DNA from: Persicirhabdus sediminis | GTDB taxonomy: Bacteria; Verrucomicrobiota; Verrucomicrobiia; Verrucomicrobiales; Akkermansiaceae | Direction: 5' to 3' | Length of the DNA: 64,000 nt | NCBI RefSeq assembly: GCF_016595495.1 | Contig: NZ_JAENIM010000047.1 | Span: 17,945 to 81,944, forward strand | Program-made: the position numbers and the translations under genes | The notes under the pieces: model-generated | The model's input: only the letters and a program-made list of their open reading frames with translations | Databases searched by the model: none | Told to the model about the DNA's origin: nothing | Part shown: one piece after another, positions 14,274 through 24,956 of the stretch | How the letters are laid out: each line of letters starts with the position of its first letter | Numbering within the stretch: the stretch's first letter is position 1

Positions 14274-16010
14274 CTATGCCTGAGAAGCGATAAAATTTCT
14301 CCAGCCAGCAAACTCTGTAATATCTTCAGCCCCCAGTGAAGCGCGCGCTTCTGCAATGAAACCACAAACACAGGAGCCATCTACCAGCTCGACTTTACCA
14401 ATTCCTAATGGTTGAGGAATCTGACTAACAAAATCACCAAAGGCCTCAACAGAAAGGCGCCAAACTTCCACCTCTAATGCAGCGCCCCCATCCGCAACAT
14501 GCACCATGGCTGGACGCTGAGGCAATCCACCACTAGCTGGGATCAGGTACATTTTATAGCTCGGCGCACTTTGCGTTTTCTTTATCAAACTGGCCCCTCT
14601 CTCCTCTAGCTGGTGATTAAGCGTCATGCCTGATAGATGGGCACCACATACAACTAACTCCACTTCATCCCAACCTATATCAGCGACAGGCTCATCACTA
14701 TAGCCAGCTAACATTTCATAACGAGATCCAAGCTCTAGCAAGGCCCGATCGCAGCCAGCTGGCCCAAACATAGTAATCCCCCAAGGTAGCTTTTGCTTAT
14801 ACCTGCCAGCCGGTAGAGCCAGTGCAGCAAAATCCAACAGGTTCATAAAATTAGTATAGCTTCCGAGAATTGAATTCAGTTTCACTGGTTCAGCCTCAAC
14901 TTCAGCCACGGTGAAATTCCTTGGTGTAGTGGGTAAAATCACCACCTGCACACTCTCAAAAACCTGATCAGCTAGACGCTTACACTCAGCCAAACGATAC
15001 TGAGCCTTGAATGCATCAACTGCTAGAGGCGTTGAGCCACCCTCAATGATAGAACGTGTTACCGGCCAGATCTCATCTGGCTGATCTTTAAGAAAGTCTT
15101 CAATTGCAGCGTAGCGCTCGCTCACCCACGGTCCCTCATATAGCAGCTTAGCTGCAGCCATAAAGGGCTCCATATCGACTTCCTCACGAATACCTCCAAG
15201 GGCCTCTAGCCTCTGAGCAGCCTGCTCAAAAAGCACACTACATTCATCCCAACCATGGTAATTCAGCTGGCCTAACATAGGCACTGCAAATCGAAATCTC
15301 TCAGCAAACCTAGACCACTTCGGCGGCATAGAACGGCTCCATGCCTCCTCTCTATCAATGCCAGCTGTCAGCCGCAAAACCAAATCGGCGTCGGCACAAT
15401 GGTGAGCAAAGACAGACACACAATCTAAGGATTTACAGGCATCGACCACGCCTCTAGTAGATAGGTAGCCACGTGTCGGCTTTAACCCCACCAGCTCGTT
15501 GAAAGCAGCTGGAACGCGACCAGAGCCCGCGGTGTCTGTACCTAGGGAAAAAGCCGCTAGATTTTTAGCGACTCCAACAGCCGACCCACAGCTCGACCCT
15601 CCTGGTAAATAATCCACATCAAAGGCATTCTTTGGCGTTGGGTAAGGCGTACGTACTCCAACTAATCCAGTGGCAAATTGATCAAGGTTAGTTTTACCCA
15701 AACAAATCGCGCCAGCCGCTCGCAAACGGGCGACAACAGTAGCATCAGCTATAGCTTCGTAGGCATAAGCTGGACATGCAGCTGTAGTTGGCATGCCAGC
15801 AACATCAATATTGTCCTTCACCAAGTAAGGAACTCCATAGAGCGGCTGATCATTTATATCAGTCAGGTTATTTATCTGAGATTGAATCTCATCCCAGCTA
15901 GCTTTGTGAATGAATACCCCTTCAACGTCTAGCTGCCAGCATTCATAGATCACTTCTTCGACTTGCGCCCCCTTACGATACCTATCCCTATAATCGCTTA
16001 TTGTCTTCAT
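14274..16010 (-). CDS. atzF: Allophanate hydrolase (AtzF type)
   Basis: 578 residues. Splits allophanate into ammonia and CO2, the last step of this operon's pathway, in the cytoplasm. An amidase-signature domain fills about residues 1-440 with the Ser-cisSer-Lys triad visible: Lys65 in LVKDNID, Ser139 in PGGSSCGS and Ser163 in TDTAGSGR. A C-terminal domain (about 455-578) contains the GxLPQRPAMV type segment of AtzF. Length is close to known AtzF proteins (about 600). It is the last gene of the operon, 3 bp after the carboxylase, so it is cotranscribed with it. Confidence 0.93.
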   Translation of the reverse strand: MKTISDYRDRYRKGAQVEEVIYECWQLDVEGVFIHKASWDEIQSQINNLTDINDQPLYGVPYLVKDNIDVAGMPTTAACPAYAYEAIADATVVARLRAAGAICLGKTNLDQFATGLVGVRTPYPTPKNAFDVDYLPGGSSCGSAVGVAKNLAAFSLGTDTAGSGRVPAAFNELVGLKPTRGYLSTRGVVDACKSLDCVSVFAHHCADADLVLRLTAGIDREEAWSRSMPPKWSRFAERFRFAVPMLGQLNYHGWDECSVLFEQAAQRLEALGGIREEVDMEPFMAAAKLLYEGPWVSERYAAIEDFLKDQPDEIWPVTRSIIEGGSTPLAVDAFKAQYRLAECKRLADQVFESVQVVILPTTPRNFTVAEVEAEPVKLNSILGSYTNFMNLLDFAALALPAGRYKQKLPWGITMFGPAGCDRALLELGSRYEMLAGYSDEPVADIGWDEVELVVCGAHLSGMTLNHQLEERGASLIKKTQSAPSYKMYLIPASGGLPQRPAMVHVADGGAALEVEVWRLSVEAFGDFVSQIPQPLGIGKVELVDGSCVCGFIAEARASLGAEDITEFAGWRNFIASQA

Positions 16011-16013
16011 GGC

Positions 16014-19000
16014 CTAAATTGTATCACATGTTCTAACCAACATCAGAGGATCACCAGCTTTGACGGAGGCCCCTGGCTTCACTAACAACCTTACTACTTC
16101 GCCACAGTACTCACTCTGCACACTCATCTCCATTTTCATAGCTTCCAAAATGATCACCGTCTGATCGACACTAACTTTGCTCTCTGGCGCGACCTCAATT
16201 TTCCAGACACTGCCAGCCATAGGCGCTTCTATCAAATCATGACCATCAGGCACATCAATATCGTCGGCGGCCACCTCTAACTCTTTTATGCTGACAATAT
16301 CGAGTCCAGCATCATCCCACCGCTGGCGTTCGTCCGCAAATGCCTTGCGCTGGCTTAGCTGAAACTCTTCTATCGACTCAGCCTCGCGACTTAAGAAATC
16401 TAAGTATTCACCTAACTTCAATGTAGACTCTTCGATCTTAGGCTCAAATTGCCCCGTTAGCATGTCACGCCTCAGCTCATCAAGATCTTCGTGCGCAACC
16501 TCATACCATTTGATTCGGTCAAAAAATCTCAACAGCCACGGCTTATCTTCTTTGAAGACAGCCGTCTGATGATACTTGTTCCAGACGGGTACAGTACGTC
16601 CAACAAACTGATAGCCACCAGGTCCTTCCATGCCATAGATACACATGTAGGCGCCACCAATTCCCACAGCATTCTCAGGCGTCCACGTTCTTGCAGGGTT
16701 GTATTTTGTAGTTACCAATCGGTGTCTCGGATCTAAGGGTGTCGCTACTGGGGCACCCAAATAAACATCCCCCAAGCCCATCACCAAATACTCAGCATCA
16801 TACACAATGCGCTTCACATCATCGATAGAATCCAAGCCATTGATACGGCGAATAAACTCAATATTGCTAGGGCACCATGGCGCGTCAGGGTTAACCATCT
16901 TGTACCTATCAATGGCTAACTGAGTGCTAGGGTCGTCCCAAGACAACGGTAAATGAACAGCTCGTGATCTAACCTCAGCGTGGCGAGGATCAGGCAATGA
17001 CTGCATGCCAGCTAATAGGTGCTGCACGACGATTCCCTCGGTAACTTCAGCGGGTGCGTAGTGCACTTGCAATGAACGGATGCCCGGAGTCACATCCACT
17101 ACTCCCTCTAATGGATTTTCCTCTAGCCACTCATATAGCAAATGCCCTAAGAAGCGCAACCTCAGGTCTAGCTCCATGTCGCCCAGTTCTAGCAAAACAT
17201 TGCGGTCACCACTACGCCTAACTACAGCGCGTGTACCATCCACTAACTTGTCCGCTAAAATTGGGTTTTCTCTGAGCATTCCAGCTGGAGAAATCGGCTC
17301 AGCAGGATCATTCACCAGCCTCAAGCGCTCGGCCTCGGCAAGACTAACTGCAACAAACTGGATTTTATCACCTGGCCGCAGCTGGCCCATTTTCCATAGA
17401 TCAGCTTGAATTATCGTCACCGGACAGACAAACCCGCCTAAGCTAGGACCATCAGGCCCCAAAATCACAGGCATATCACCCGTGAAGTCGATCGCCCCAA
17501 TTCCATAGGCGTTATCGTGAATATTAGACGGGTGTAATCCCGCTTCTCCTCCATCTTTTCTCGCCCATGCAGGCTTAGGCCCTATCAATCTAACGCCAGT
17601 TCTCGCTGAATTGTGATGAACCTCCCATTTTGCGTCAAAAAATGTCTGCATATCCGCCTCAGTAAAAAACTCTGGCGCTCCATGAGGTCCGTACAATACT
17701 GCTATTTCCCACTCGTTCTGGTAGATGATTGGCTCTTCAGTCGCGACGATTTCTGTAACCGTAGCCTCTGCTATCTCCAGCACATCTCCACTAACTAATG
17801 CTCGGCCACCGTGGCCACCAAATTGTCCGAGGGTAAAAGTAGACTTACTGCCCAAATAATCAGGAACATCAATCCCTCCTGCAATAGCTAAGTATGCTCG
17901 GCAGCCAGTAGTAGCCGCCTTGCCAATCGCTAAAACCTGCCCCTTTCTAACCTCCATACGCTGCCAGCTAGCCACAGGTTCACCATCTATGGTTGCATCC
18001 ATTTCAGCTCCAGTGATCGCGCAGACCGTATCGTAGCCAAATCTCAAACTCGGCCCAGCCATAGTCATTTCCAGCGCCGCATCGCCCTCTTGATTACCAA
18101 CAAGTCGGTTGGCGCAACGAAACGCGCACTCGTCCATTGGACCTGATGGAGGCACACCAACATTCCAAAAACCTAACCTCGCAGGCAAATCCTGAACCGT
18201 TGTCATGGTGCCCCCCTTGAGCACTTCGATGATTCGGTCATCGTATTGCAAACTATCTAACCAATGTGTATGAACTCCTCCAGCTTGAAAGTCTTCGTCA
18301 GAAATGATTTGTTTGAGATAGGCTAGGTTCGTCCTGATTCCAGCAATTTTAGATTCTATCAGAGCATTCTCCATCTTATCCAATGCCTGATGACGATCTT
18401 CTCCGAAAGTCTGAATCTTAACTAACAATGGGTCATAAAACGAACTAACTTCAGAACCAGATTCAATCCATCCATCACAGCGAACATCTTCCGGCAAACT
18501 AACGTAAGTGATCAAACCCGCGCTAGGTAAAAAATCTTTCGCTGGATCTTCCGCGTAAACGCGTACCTCAATGGCCGCACCAGACGCTTCAACTTTATCA
18601 ATATGTTCGATTGGGTTTCCACCTGTCCCTAGCAGAACCATCCACTCTACGATATCAACGCCGGTCACTAATTCTGTAACCCCATGCTCAACCTGTAGCC
18701 GCGTATTGACCTCGAGAAAATAAAACTCCTCGTTAGCCATATCATAGAGAAATTCTACAGTACCAGCGGAACGATAGCTCACGCTCTCCGCTAGGCAAAC
18801 AGCACTATCTAATAGGGCCTGCCGTGTTTGCTCAGAGATTAGCGGAGCTGGTGTTTCCTCAACCACTTTTTGATGTCTCCTCTGCACCGAGCAATCACGC
18901 TCTCCTAGAGCAACAACCTTACCTTTGCCGTCACCAAAAACCTGCACTTCGATGTGGCGAGCTTTCTCAACATAACGCTCAAGAAACACTCCCGCGTCAT

Positions 19001-19574
19001 TAAAGTTAGACTGAGCCAAGCGAATCACAGACTCAAAGCCTTCCTCTAACTCTGATAGGGAACGGCACAGCTGCATACCAATACCGCCGCCTCCTGCTGT
19101 GCTCTTTAACATCAGCGGAAAACCTATACGCAGGGCTTCTTCACGCGCATGCTGTAAGTCATTGATCAAATCAGTCCCTGGGCACAGAGGCACTCCAGCT
19201 GCTACAGCTAACTCTCTAGCCGTATGCTTAAGTCCAAACGATTTTAAAGTATCAACGGTGGGCCCTAACCACACGCAGCCGAGTTTGTTGCACAGCTCTA
19301 CAAATCCCGCATTTTCGCTAAGTAAACCATAACCAGGATGAACCGCCTCGGCCTTACTCTCTGTGATCACCTTTTCTAACTGGACCAAATCAAGATAGGT
19401 ATCCTTGACCCCTTCACCTTCGAGTAAATAGCTTTCATCGGCATCTAGCACGTATCTGGAATTTCTATCAGCAGATGAATAAACCACCACTACCTTGATG
19501 CCCATTGAGCGCAGCGTCAAACTAATCCGAGCTGCAATCTCACCGCGGTTAGCAATTAATACTTTAGCAAACAT
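16014..19574 (-). CDS. Biotin-dependent guanidine (or urea) carboxylase
   Basis: 1186 residues, ATP- and biotin-dependent carboxylase of the urea carboxylase family. Order: biotin carboxylase (about 1-450, with KSTAGGGGIGMQ ATP loop and EVNTRLQVEHGVTE), AHS2/KipA-like half (about 455-760, TVQDLPARLGFWNVGVPPSG), AHS1/KipI-like half (about 795-1010, SGDRNVLLELGD) and a biotinyl domain with EAMKMEM (biotin Lys1147). Relatives next to DUF1989 pairs have been shown to carboxylate guanidine rather than urea, and that setting is present here, so guanidine is the likely substrate (inference). The single substrate-pocket residue that separates the two was not assigned. Confidence 0.9.
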   Translation of the reverse strand: MFAKVLIANRGEIAARISLTLRSMGIKVVVVYSSADRNSRYVLDADESYLLEGEGVKDTYLDLVQLEKVITESKAEAVHPGYGLLSENAGFVELCNKLGCVWLGPTVDTLKSFGLKHTARELAVAAGVPLCPGTDLINDLQHAREEALRIGFPLMLKSTAGGGGIGMQLCRSLSELEEGFESVIRLAQSNFNDAGVFLERYVEKARHIEVQVFGDGKGKVVALGERDCSVQRRHQKVVEETPAPLISEQTRQALLDSAVCLAESVSYRSAGTVEFLYDMANEEFYFLEVNTRLQVEHGVTELVTGVDIVEWMVLLGTGGNPIEHIDKVEASGAAIEVRVYAEDPAKDFLPSAGLITYVSLPEDVRCDGWIESGSEVSSFYDPLLVKIQTFGEDRHQALDKMENALIESKIAGIRTNLAYLKQIISDEDFQAGGVHTHWLDSLQYDDRIIEVLKGGTMTTVQDLPARLGFWNVGVPPSGPMDECAFRCANRLVGNQEGDAALEMTMAGPSLRFGYDTVCAITGAEMDATIDGEPVASWQRMEVRKGQVLAIGKAATTGCRAYLAIAGGIDVPDYLGSKSTFTLGQFGGHGGRALVSGDVLEIAEATVTEIVATEEPIIYQNEWEIAVLYGPHGAPEFFTEADMQTFFDAKWEVHHNSARTGVRLIGPKPAWARKDGGEAGLHPSNIHDNAYGIGAIDFTGDMPVILGPDGPSLGGFVCPVTIIQADLWKMGQLRPGDKIQFVAVSLAEAERLRLVNDPAEPISPAGMLRENPILADKLVDGTRAVVRRSGDRNVLLELGDMELDLRLRFLGHLLYEWLEENPLEGVVDVTPGIRSLQVHYAPAEVTEGIVVQHLLAGMQSLPDPRHAEVRSRAVHLPLSWDDPSTQLAIDRYKMVNPDAPWCPSNIEFIRRINGLDSIDDVKRIVYDAEYLVMGLGDVYLGAPVATPLDPRHRLVTTKYNPARTWTPENAVGIGGAYMCIYGMEGPGGYQFVGRTVPVWNKYHQTAVFKEDKPWLLRFFDRIKWYEVAHEDLDELRRDMLTGQFEPKIEESTLKLGEYLDFLSREAESIEEFQLSQRKAFADERQRWDDAGLDIVSIKELEVAADDIDVPDGHDLIEAPMAGSVWKIEVAPESKVSVDQTVIILEAMKMEMSVQSEYCGEVVRLLVKPGASVKAGDPLMLVRTCDTI

Positions 19575-19591: not shown

Positions 19592-20221
19592 TTACCAGAT
19601 AGCCACCTCTACTGGTGTTGGATTCCAGCCATTACATGGGTTATTCAGCTGCGGACAGTTAGAAATAAGTACTTCAACATCCATCTTAGCGACTAACTCG
19701 ACGTAACGACCCGGCGCAGAAATTCCATCATCAAAACGCAAGCCACCAGCTGGCGTCACGGGTACATTCATGAAAAAGTTAATGTTACAAGTGATGTCGC
19801 TCTTTCCTCTGCCCATTTCTTGCACGCCACGGATAAAGCTATCTCGGCACGCGTGCATCGGTTCTTTATTGAGAGCATAGCGCATCGTATTACTCTCGCG
19901 CGAACAAGCTCCGCCAAGCGTATCGTGACGGCCACAAGTATCAGCCACGATTTCTAGCATCTCGTTTCCTCGCGTCGACATCAGCTTACTCCCTGTCGTT
20001 AGATAGACTTTCCCCTGCGCTTGTATCGTATCACTCGCGCTATATCTCTCGTCCTCATCATCAGCTACATAAAATAAAGTATCCGCTGCTTGGTTTCCCT
20101 CTAGGTCAACAATGCGGATCGTCTGACCAGCGGCCACCCGCTTCCACCAATAATCACCCGCTCCAATCACATGCCTGTATTGAGCGTCCTCCACCATCAA
20201 ATCACTTTTTACCGTCTTCAT
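19592..20221 (-). CDS. DUF1989 protein, likely carboxyguanidine deiminase subunit
   Basis: 209 residues, urea carboxylase-associated protein family (DUF1989). It carries [19 protein letters not shown], a Cys/His-containing motif shared with the next gene upstream, and NFFMNVPV typical of the family. Pairs of such proteins next to this carboxylase form a heteromeric deiminase turning carboxyguanidine into allophanate and ammonia. This copy resembles the shorter partner (often called associated protein 2). Lies 17 bp upstream of the carboxylase. Confidence 0.88.
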
Positions 20222-20243: not shown

Positions 20244-20966
20244 CTAAAATCTTAACAAATGATACTCCTCTGTATTTTCAAAGGCCCTAGCGTTCTCTGG
20301 GTGCGAGAGCCTGCAGTGATCATCACCTCCTGCGGCATCCGCCTCATACACCTCTAGCAGAACGGGCTTCTCCGTGTAATGCGGAGCTGAAGAAAGTGGA
20401 TGCTGGCACAAATTGAGCACCACAAGACAATCCATTTCCATTCTCAGATCAATATAACTCCCCGCCTCGGAGTTCCCCTCCACGTAGGATAGCTCGCCAT
20501 CTTCGCCGCTCACTACTTTACTGAATAAATTCAAGTTAGGTACTAGGTCTTTCTCGCCTAGTCCCCACTTCGCTAGCTCTATCATGAAGCAATCATGCCC
20601 ATTTCTATGGAAATCATTTTTTGCATTTTGATAGCTGCACTCACCATACTTGTACTCTACCAGTTTAGCATTAGATGCGCCACAAACGGTGTCATGCCAG
20701 CCGCATGTGTCAGCAATCACTGAAGATAACAAGCGCCCCATATCTGAGTGCAAACAATTGCCCTTGCTTAGATAAAAAACCTGCTGCCCCTTCAGGGTGT
20801 CCGGCATGTTGTAGCGCTCGTGTCTCTCCAGGGCATTGTACAATAACATACCAACATTGGCGCCACCTTCTAGATCAGTTAAGCGCAGGACCTTTCCACG
20901 GCTGATGATTTTCGACCACATCCCCGCTCCTGTTAACTTCTTACTGTATATCATCTCTTGCTTCAT
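20244..20966 (-). CDS. DUF1989 protein, second carboxyguanidine deiminase subunit
   Basis: 240 residues, the longer DUF1989 partner (urea carboxylase-associated protein 1 type). It shares [15 protein letters not shown] with its neighbour and has NLNLFSKV in the place of the partner's NFFMNV. The C-terminal tail (residues about 205-240) is extra. Together with the gene at 19592 it probably forms the heteromeric deiminase; the naming of subunits A and B was not resolved from sequence. Confidence 0.88.
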
Positions 20967-20970
20967 CTTC

Positions 20971-21495
20971 TTAATTGTTAGTCTCTTTCGTTTGAGGATA
21001 TTGAATGGGTGGCATAAGAGTTGATGAAAGAGTCATTGAGCCACTCATTACCCCTTTGGTAGTAATCAAATCATCTGCTATTTTTCTAAGTTTGTTAGCT
21101 CGGCCTTGCACCAATACAACCTCCATAGTTCGTTCATCCTCTAGGTGCACATGGAGTGAACTAATAACCTCTTCCAAGTAACCATATTGTATATCAGCCA
21201 GTCTTTTTTTGATGCCACGTTTAGAATGTGCATAAACTAAAGTGATGGCCCCGGTCATGATATTGGAACCTTCTTCACATGCGTAGCGGTCTAACTCACG
21301 CATCAGAAGTTCACTCACCCCTTGTGAACGACTTTCAAAGCCTCGCTGATCAATCAACGAGTCAAAGCGCCGAATCAAGCTGCGGGGAACTGACAGGCTA
21401 ATTCGTTCCATCGGCTCACTTGCCGTGGTTGAAGCCGTCATCATAACAGGCTCGGAATAATACTTTTCCTTCATTTTGTAATAACTGGATGGCAA
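20971..21495 (-). CDS. NikR-family ribbon-helix-helix regulator lacking nickel ligands
   Basis: 174 residues. Ribbon-helix-helix DNA-binding domain (about 30-70: [19 protein letters not shown], then [10 protein letters not shown]), then an ACT-like ligand domain with [18 protein letters not shown]. Compared with Escherichia coli NikR, the LHVH pair is kept (His115, His117), but the His76 position is Tyr104 and the Cys95 position is Thr123. High-affinity square-planar nickel binding is therefore unlikely. Cotranscribed between the transporter and the DUF1989 genes, so it probably senses a pathway compound, perhaps guanidine (inference). Confidence 0.85.
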
Positions 21496-21501
21496 ATAAT
21501 T

Positions 21502-22404
21502 TTAATAAACATCATCACCTACCGCTGTCATACGCGGGATAACAACACGCTTCTGTTCACTAGCAGGTTTGTAGATGAGCTCTTCCAGGCGTTGCTTAAC
21601 AGACAAGAATTCAGGAGAGATGAATTGTTCAGGTCCCCTTGGGTGCGGCACAGGTACTTCTATCACCTCTTGTACACAGCTAGGATTCGCTCCTAGAACC
21701 AGTACCCTATCAGATAAATAAATTGCCTCATCGAGGTCGTGAGTAATAAACAAAACTGTGACGTCAACATTCTTCCAGATTTCCAACAGGTAAGCCTGCA
21801 TTTGAGCTCGCGTCTGGGCATCTAGGGCTCCAAATGGCTCATCCATCAGAAGGATTCTTGGCTGATTTGCTAGAGCGCGGGCAATAGCTACACGCTGTTT
21901 CATCCCTCCGGACAATTCATGAGGATAGGCATTAGCGAAGCGAGTGAGTCCAACAATATCCAGCCACTGCATAGCCTCGCTCTCGGCCGAAGTGCCTGAT
22001 TCACCACGCATTTTCATGCCAAACATAACGTTCTTCTTCACCGTCAGCCAAGGGAACAAAGTATATCCTTGAAAGACCATACCGCGGTCGGGGCCTGGGC
22101 CATCAATTTGCTTACCATCCAACAAAACTTGCCCACTCGTGACCGATTCCAATCCAGCCAATATGCGGATCAATGTCGACTTACCACAACCCGACTGTCC
22201 AATTACGCTGATAAATTCGCGACGATGAACATTAAAGCTAATGTTATCGAGTGCGTGCACGTCACCTTTAGGCGTTGAGAAAACCCGGCTGGCCGATTTG
22301 ACTTCTAGCACTTTTGGTCGCTGCTTGAGCTGATCAAAGCGGTTCTTCACCAGCTCGCTTTGCTCTGTGTAACTAGGAAGATGTATTCCTGAGGACGTAT
22401 TCAT
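21502..22404 (-). CDS. ABC transporter ATP-binding protein (guanidine/nitrogen compound uptake)
   Basis: 300 residues, NitT/TauT-type ATPase. Walker [10 protein letters not shown], signature LSGGMKQR, Walker B ILLMDEP, switch His in FITHDLDEA. Couples ATP hydrolysis to import with the permease at 22407 (2 bp away) and the binding protein at 23859. Related transporters accompany guanidine carboxylase operons, so guanidine is the probable cargo (inference from context). Confidence 0.92.
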
Positions 22405-22406
22405 AA

Positions 22407-23828
22407 TTAGATAGCTTTGGTATTAATTTCAGGTTCAAGACGCCCCTCAGTCAGCCACGCTACAAACCTAGCAGGTAGCCGCACAATTTGTGCAATCGGG
22501 CCGGATTTTTCATCCACAATCCATGGGAAGAAAACCACCCTTACACCTGATAGGATTTGATCGACAAAGAAACCAGTCAGGCCAATAAGGAAAATAATTG
22601 GATAAACGTGGTCGAACTGGAAACGACGGCCCTGAGTATCAATAATTTCCGTGAGTCCACTTTTCATGCCGATAAGCTCCGCAATGACTAACCATGTCCA
22701 CGCCCAGCCCAACAGAATCCGAAGATCGTTATACAAGCTTGGTAGAATAGCTGGAATCACGACATCCTTAATCACCTGAAGCCTGCTCGCTCCCAGAGTT
22801 TGGGCGGCGTCCAACAGCGAACGGTCTACTGTCCTAGTTGTGTTCGCCACCATGAGGATCAGATGCGGAAGTGTGCCTATAACAACCAAGGCAACCTTAG
22901 GCGCCTGCGCGAGACCAAACACTGCAATGAGCACGGTACTGAATGCCGGTGCGGGCATGTAGCGGAAGAAATCGACAAATGGTTCTATCAGCTTGGATAA
23001 AAAAGTGAATGTTCCAGCTAGCAAAGCGATAGGTACGCCAATGAGTGCCGCCAGTAGAAATCCTGAAAAGACCACCGAAATAGATGAACGATAACGGCTA
23101 GCAACTTGTAGATCCCCGAGTTCAGATTGGTTTGTAAAATCAGCCCATGCGCTGTTAAAAACCTCATCTGGAGCAGGGATGTAAACTGGTCTAGCAACTT
23201 TCAATCTACCCTGAGGAACCAGCTGAAACATGGGCTCAGATAGAAACTTGTTGGCGTCGTAGTTATCTGCCACTTGATTGAGTAGCTGATAGTTGGTTTT
23301 GATCAACTGGAGGTTTTCGTCACTGAGCGTCCCGTCAGCAACTTGCAACTCTCCGCTGTCCAGCTGCCCCCATAAGCGAAACATTGTCGCATACATTTCG
23401 CGGTAGTAATCTTTAGAGCTCAGCTGATCTTTAATGCGAACATTGAACCAGCCATTTTCTTCGGCAACAGGGACAAATGAGCGAAGAATCTTTTTGTTAT
23501 AACTACGCGCACTGCGTTCACTCATGCCGAAGTCCTTAGCCGAACTTTCACGCATTTCCGCTAGAGCAGCGTTATCGTCTCTAATCGCTTGCTGATAATC
23601 GTGAAAATAATCATCAGAAACAACATCGCCAGCTAGATAAGTGGCCGGAAAGGCCTGCGTATCTGATGGTGCCGATACAATTGTTAGTCTATAATCACGC
23701 TCCCATAAAAACGGGGCATAAGAGACCACGCACCATAAGACGAGAGGAATCAAAAATGAACACATCACAAGGACGCGAGCACTCATATCGCCGAGCGGTG
23801 CAGCTACTTTAAACCAATTCCTCATCAT
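22407..23828 (-). CDS. ABC transporter permease with large periplasmic insertion
   Basis: 473 residues, BPD_transp_1 family. After a first membrane segment (about 20-40) comes a roughly 200-residue extracytoplasmic segment. The usual permease core follows from about residue 245, with the EAA-type loop [24 protein letters not shown] near residue 340. Typical NitT/TauT permeases are about 250-300 residues, so the insertion is the odd feature. It may dock the binding protein or sense ligand. Confidence 0.88.
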
Positions 23829-23858: not shown

Positions 23859-24833
23859 CTACTTGGCTAACTCCGCAGTTAGGCTGGCGTCGAAATATTT
23901 ACTGATATCTTGAGCTGACTCATAAACCTTATACTTCACGTTGAAGTCATCAGATATTTTGCTAGATCCGTAAACAGAAGATAGCCCTTCGCCAGGCTGA
24001 TAGGCAGCTAGCGCCTGCTCGAGCGAGAGGATGAATGTACCATCGAGAAGCGGTTCATAAGCATCAGGTTTCATGCCGACACGCTGAGCTAAGATATCTA
24101 ATGATTCTTCGTGGTTCTCTTCATCTTTAAGGTATTCGACGATCTGATACCAAACCTTGACGACTTTTAGCCACTCAGCTCTGTTCTTTTGCAAACTTTC
24201 AGGGCTGACAAACAGGCCATCATAAATGATGCCTGGTGCGTTGGCTGAGGAAAACAGCACTTTAGAACCAGCTACTTCCTTTAGCGCTGTTCCTGAGTTA
24301 GGCTGCCAAGCACAGATAGCAGCTACTTTTCCGCTCTTCAATACCTGAGGAGTTTCATCTGTTGGAGTATTAACAATCTCGATATCAGACTCGCTCATGC
24401 CATGCGCCTCGAGGGCCTTTAGGGTGAGCAGATGTGGGACAAAGCCCTCTTCAAGAGCAACTTTTTTCCCCTTCAAGTCCTTAACGTCTTTGATGTCTTT
24501 AGTTCCAACCAGAATATCGTTACCGTTAGAATAATCATTAAGAACAATAGCCACGGATGGTTTAGCGGTTGCTCCTGTCACTAGGGCGTCGCCGTTAGTC
24601 ATGCACACCGCATCTAACTGCCCAGCACCATAAGCTTCCATTGAGGCGACGTAATCCATCCATACAAAATCCACCTCAACACCCGCTTCTTTGAACCAGC
24701 CTTTTTGAACACCAATTTCCCAAGCCACCCAGCCTGGCCAATCACTGTAGCCTACTTTGAGGGGTTCAGCGTGCAAAGTTGTCGTCATAGCCACTGCGGC
24801 TATGCCCATTACCATTGTCTTGATCTTTTTCAT
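23859..24833 (-). CDS. ABC transporter substrate-binding protein
   Basis: 324 residues, periplasmic NMT1/SsuA-type binding protein. Signal peptide [22 protein letters not shown], then [23 protein letters not shown], the typical first lobe with Asp-Trp-Pro-Gly. First gene of the operon. Expected to bring guanidine or a related cation to the permease (context-based). It is preceded by a candidate promoter and a cluster of GCATG words. Confidence 0.9.
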
Positions 24834-24852
24834 CTGCTCAGCATGTTAATTT

Positions 24853-24882: not shown

Positions 24883-24900
24883 AAAGCTCACACGCTAACC

Positions 24901-24956
24901 CATGCTGAGCAGGCGGCATGCCAGCGGGCCAAACCATGCATGACAGTCATTCATGC
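24901..24956. promoter_or_regulatory. Cluster of GCATG/CATGC half-sites, candidate regulator operator
   Basis: Five CATG cores fall within 56 bp (at 24901, 24917, 24935, 24939 and 24952), including a dyad TCATGC/GCATGA and a palindrome GGCATGCC. A sixth is in the leader at 24842. NikR operators use GTATGA and TCATAC half-sites, so these are reasonable targets for the operon's NikR-like protein. They sit upstream of the proposed -35 box. Confidence 0.4.

Follow-up and report, generated by a model that had tools for sequence, protein, structure and literature searches.

We propose that the fourth gene of an eight-gene operon in the 64 kb stretch of DNA analysed here (hereafter the window) encodes a NikR-family repressor that has been freed from nickel, acts independently of metal, and is released by guanidine or, less likely, by a close compound of the same pathway, as a protein counterpart of the guanidine-I riboswitch. 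We assign this reading a probability of about 0.58. NikR-like control of guanidine operons is well supported by comparative sequence evidence, and guanidine is the best inference for the ligand of the NikR-like protein. By a slight balance of probability, we also favour the view that the metal site of this protein clade has been turned into a guanidinium site of inverted polarity, which would make the clade the first guanidine-sensing transcription factor and a replacement for the guanidine-I riboswitch in several lineages.

Genomic context of the NikR-like gene

All eight genes lie on the minus strand. The run begins with the three genes of an ABC importer, encoding a substrate-binding protein (23859–24833; matched by the urea-carboxylase-linked binding protein model TIGR03427 with E 2e-46, below the cutoff of that model), a permease (22407–23828; PF00528) and an ATPase (21502–22404; PF00005). 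The NikR-like gene (20971–21444) follows, and downstream of it are genes for the UAAP1 and UAAP2 subunits of a carboxyguanidine deiminase of the CgdA/B, DUF1989 type (20244–20966 and 19592–20221; TIGR03425 and TIGR03424, both above cutoff), guanidine carboxylase (16014–19574; TIGR02712) and allophanate hydrolase (14274–16010; TIGR02713, above cutoff). The regulator was originally read as a minus-strand ORF spanning 20971–21495 with a TTG start at 21495. An ATG at 21444 agrees with the starts of its relatives and is probably the true start.

Aspartates at the positions equivalent to residues 1330 and 1584 of Kluyveromyces lactis urea carboxylase are a published diagnostic of guanidine carboxylase (PMC11410670). 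The window enzyme carries both, the first in place of Asn1330, and is accompanied by UAAP1, UAAP2 and allophanate hydrolase, which upholds the original assignment of a guanidine-type operon. The same aspartate marks were found in 42 of 42 and 90 of 90 linked loci in which the motif was readable.

Association of the regulator with this pathway is the rule in the window's order. Among 289 genomes, 69 carry a NikR-like gene, 70 carry a deiminase gene and 68 carry both (p 1e-62), and 66 of the 71 NikR-like genes are located directly upstream of UAAP1 on the same strand. The co-occurrence raised in the original prediction is thus found, and its remark that this type of regulator is not usually linked to the pathway fails for the order, where 68 of the 70 deiminase genomes have the gene. 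The remark holds for the literature, as no paper that ties NikR in this way to guanidine carboxylase, to operons of urea carboxylase or to guanidine riboswitches was found in a search that left most subscription journals and regulon databases outside its reach. No second NikR is encoded in the window's genome. The NikR-like proteins of guanidine carboxylase operons form a separate clade (branch support 99) that is also present in Alpha-, Beta- and Gammaproteobacteria, with a deiminase gene less than 9 kb away in 68 of 80 loci. One guanidine operon of the same order (L067, 7251–8964 and around) includes an SMR-type exporter gene and has neither a NikR-like gene nor a guanidine riboswitch.

Loss of the nickel site

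The window protein scores above the cutoffs of PF01402 and PF08753 and combines a ribbon-helix-helix (RHH_1) with a NikR_C fold. Its AF2 model, a monomer that serves here for the fold and not for claims about the pocket, matches the fold of Pyrococcus horikoshii NikR. The protein also exceeds the cutoff of NF003381, the NCBIfam model for nickel-responsive NikR, a label that probably misdescribes the clade as a whole.

Alignments to NikR of P. horikoshii (E=8e-32) and E. coli (E=4e-16) contain no gaps across the ligand stretch. Nickel is bound in E. coli NikR by His76′, His87, His89 and Cys95 (PMC7055735). At these positions the window protein has Tyr104, His115, His117 and Thr123 (counted from the TTG start), and the square-planar nickel site is therefore incomplete. 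The gapless alignment bears out the original reading that the His115-x-His117 pair, equivalent to His87 and His89, is kept and that Tyr104 and Thr123 take the places of His76 and Cys95. The lost ligands are not replaced; in the protein sequence, neither Tyr104 nor Thr123 has a Cys or His close by that could substitute, and the sole Cys of the protein, residue 73, is in the linker. The potassium site formed by Glu30 and Asp34 is likewise altered, to Gln58 and Glu62.

The description of a regulator that has lost half of its nickel site is accurate for the window (Y-H-H-T) but understates the loss in the family, where Cys95 is gone throughout and His89 is often Leu. In 112 clade members, part of which were retrieved with a pattern requiring Thr or Val at position 95, the Cys95 position is held by Thr in 94, Val in 14 and other residues in the remainder. 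At the His89 position, 53 members have His and 43 have Leu, the residue of most Verrucomicrobiota, and at the His76 position only 35 have His; the window's His-x-His pair represents one of several variants. Because the search pattern biased the genome-collection scan, that scan was excluded from the counting of Cys95 loss. In the unbiased sets, Cys95 is missing from every operon-linked member read in the window's order and from five of five clade members read in a class sample of Gammaproteobacteria; the unlinked NikRs of this sample have His-His-His-Cys in 25 of 25 cases and Glu30 in 24 of 25. Glu30 is replaced by Gln in 107 of 115 clade relatives, and Arg33 is also lost. Despite these differences and its position as a separate clade, the group shares with the NikR proteins of E. 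coli, P. horikoshii and Helicobacter pylori the ribbon-helix-helix and NikR_C fold and a DNA-reading strand with Arg3, Ser/Thr5 and Ser/Thr7. Its predicted target is guanidine uptake and degradation rather than nickel import.

Predicted operator and promoter

A de novo dyad search upstream of regulator and importer genes in the window's order returned GTATGA-N16-TCATAC as the top motif (13 loci, at most 4 in shuffles), and in the wider set GTATTA-N16-TAATAC ranked first upstream of the importer (50 of 58 loci, at most 5 in shuffles). The former, found in many loci of the clade, is the operator of E. coli NikR (PMC7055735; PMC4486848), and both the clade and the window site keep its geometry of two half-sites 16 bases apart. 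A matrix trained on 81 sites from outside the window identifies a single site in the 64 kb, GTGTGAGCTTTTTGTCAAAAAGTATTAC at 24893–24866 on the minus strand (GTGTGA-N16-TATTAC), ahead of the substrate-binding protein gene that opens the operon. This predicted operator is the only position in the window that reaches at least 15.5 bits; its score was attained in 0 of 500 shuffles, and 0 of 20 riboswitch loci passed the training threshold. An inverted repeat, GCTCAGCATG/CATGCTGAGC (24901–24910 and 24834–24843), flanks the site in the operon leader. The repeat was our first guess for the operator and was dropped, as the motif search and the matrix scan indicate the other site.

Perfect operator matches in 29 whole genomes amount to 22 sites, 19 of them before an importer or regulator gene of this system, compared with 6 sites for the reversed control pattern. 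Two genomes in which the importer is unlinked to the regulator still have a perfect site before the importer, and in many loci the regulator gene has a predicted operator of its own. Protein and DNA also vary together: every one of the 23 loci whose half-sites are of the GTATGA type has Thr as residue 5 of the DNA-reading strand, and the 69 GTATTA-type loci and 4 mixed loci all have Ser or Cys there. There is no exception in 96 loci, but these trace to only three independent changes (3/3 concordant, sign test p 0.25). In E. coli NikR, Arg3, Thr5 and Thr7 contact bases.

A sigma54-like promoter, TGGCATGCCGCCTGCT (24908–24923, minus strand), matches 10 of 12 consensus positions and lies 15 bases before the window operator. 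Of 68 loci, 59 have such an element (GG-N10-GC) ahead of the operator, and the match is good in 54 of the 68 (0.5 in shuffles). RpoN (sigma54) is encoded in 10 of 10 genomes checked, including that of the window. We considered a sigma70 promoter lying within the operator but abandoned it in favour of the sigma54-like element, which is better supported. With this arrangement the operator would overlap the transcription start or lie just downstream of it, the position of a repressor. We suggest that the tetramer occupies the operator without metal and blocks transcription, that guanidine entering the cell would bind the former metal domain and cause the tetramer to leave the DNA, and that the genes for the importer, the regulator and the degradation enzymes would then be transcribed if nitrogen limitation has activated sigma54, which amounts to AND logic.

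Guanidine riboswitches and the identity of the ligand

Neither guanidine-I (RF00442) nor guanidine-II (RF01068) aptamers are present in the window or its genome, and riboswitch control of the window operon was rejected for this reason. Under strict filters, guanidine-I riboswitches were found in 0 of the 70 deiminase genomes of the order. The class sample of Gammaproteobacteria includes 22 genomes with a deiminase above cutoff. A guanidine-I riboswitch occurs in none of the 7 in which a NikR-like gene is adjacent and in all 15 of those in which it is not (Fisher p 6e-6), and 14 of the 15 riboswitches are on the same contig as the deiminase, within about 4 kb. Riboswitch and NikR-like protein, the one an RNA and the other a protein, both head guanidine carboxylase operons and are expected to permit expression when substrate is present, yet they are mutually exclusive at the deiminase operon. 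Together with the linkage, the separate clade and its own operator, this exclusion strongly supports the original proposal that a NikR with a defective nickel site appears to have been recruited to the guanidine operon.

NikR-headed operons often carry a guanidine-sensing element of another kind. In Methylobacillus a guanidine-II aptamer (L104, 11283–11329) is located inside the operon directly before the guanidine carboxylase gene, and besides Methylobacillus seven proteobacterial genomes have guanidine-II aptamers at matching distances. In a Methylobacterium operon a guanidine-II riboswitch (L125, 2644–2693) is near the carboxylase gene. The guanidine operon of Vreelandella boliviensis, which shares the carboxylase, the deiminase subunits, the allophanate hydrolase and the ABC importer, likewise has an internal guanidine-II switch before the carboxylase, but a guanidine-I switch is at its head (PMC12508155) where the operons described here have the NikR-like protein and the predicted operator. 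Given this correspondence, the NikR-like protein would stand at the head of an operon that guanidine regulates in any case.

The same repressor might answer to another compound handled by the importer or the pathway, such as methylguanidine, a substrate of the creatininase-family and glutamine-synthetase-like enzymes, carboxyguanidine, allophanate or urea. In most proteobacterial operons of the NikR-headed type, genes for these two enzymes separate the importer from the NikR-like gene (for example L077, 6764–7543, and L076, 7546–8907), and in many Verrucomicrobiota they are near the NikR-like gene. They possibly constitute a further route by which guanidine, or a compound related to it, is handled; no paper connecting creatininase with guanidine riboswitches was found. 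Operons with the importer, both of these genes and the NikR-like gene but no deiminase occur in L076, L077, L092, L093, L102 and L133, some of them in genomes that already have guanidine-I riboswitches. In L077, L133, L144 and L127 the deiminase operon has the riboswitch, and the operon with the importer and this enzyme pair carries the NikR-like gene; the presence of both sensors in one genome means that the ligand of the protein could be a different compound. Guanidine itself is indicated, however, by the guanidine-II aptamers within NikR-headed operons and by the strict mutual exclusion with guanidine-I riboswitches at the operon of the deiminase, and the window operon has neither a creatininase nor a glutamine-synthetase gene. 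We regard a different ligand as possible, though distinctly less probable than guanidine. Other observations also count against our main reading: no obvious acidic guanidinium pocket specific to the clade was found, polarity must have reversed in the clade since canonical NikR binds DNA with its ligand, and the L067 operon has neither sensor.

It is unlikely that the protein still responds to nickel or a different metal and switches between nickel urease and a nickel-free nitrogen supply. Nickel sensing is retained as a minor rival because urease is common in these genomes and adjoins the operon in two of them. The original prediction noted that no nickel enzyme accompanies the regulator, which is correct for the operon and incorrect for the genome, where urease is encoded elsewhere (G000, C32:70043–70447). 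Urease is present in 33 of 40 of these genomes, directly 3′ of the operon in the nearest relative (L032, 15556–17760) and divergent from it in L037 (12674–17903). The window protein and many proteobacterial members keep His87 and His89, some of the latter together with His76. Against this stand the loss of Cys95 throughout the clade and of Glu30 and Arg33, the Leu at position 89 of most Verrucomicrobiota even where urease adjoins the operon, and the perfect operator matches, which occur at the guanidine operon and were not seen at urease in the genomes searched. A nickel signal would also leave the exclusion with guanidine riboswitches unexplained. Still more improbable is a ligand-free autoregulator or fixed repressor, with sigma54 and a nitrogen activator as the on-switch. 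The sigma54-like elements before most operators, the RpoN genes and the regulator's own operator in many loci are consistent with it, but under this reading the operon would lack a substrate signal at exactly the point where one is retained in other bacteria, and the ligand domain shows good conservation.

According to a 2025 review, riboswitches are the only known guanidine receptors besides transporters and enzymes, no guanidine-binding transcription factor is known, and protein regulators are still to be found (PMC12186494). A NikR-like repressor released by guanidine would clearly exemplify both the conversion of a metal sensor, its operator being kept, into a sensor for a small organic molecule and the replacement of a riboswitch by a protein at the same gene set. 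In this clade there is a specific candidate whose operator has been predicted, which makes the question testable at once. Three genomes (L152, G313; L157, G301; L202, G402) encode a canonical His-His-His-Cys NikR beside the guanidine-type protein and offer a natural pair for comparison of operators.
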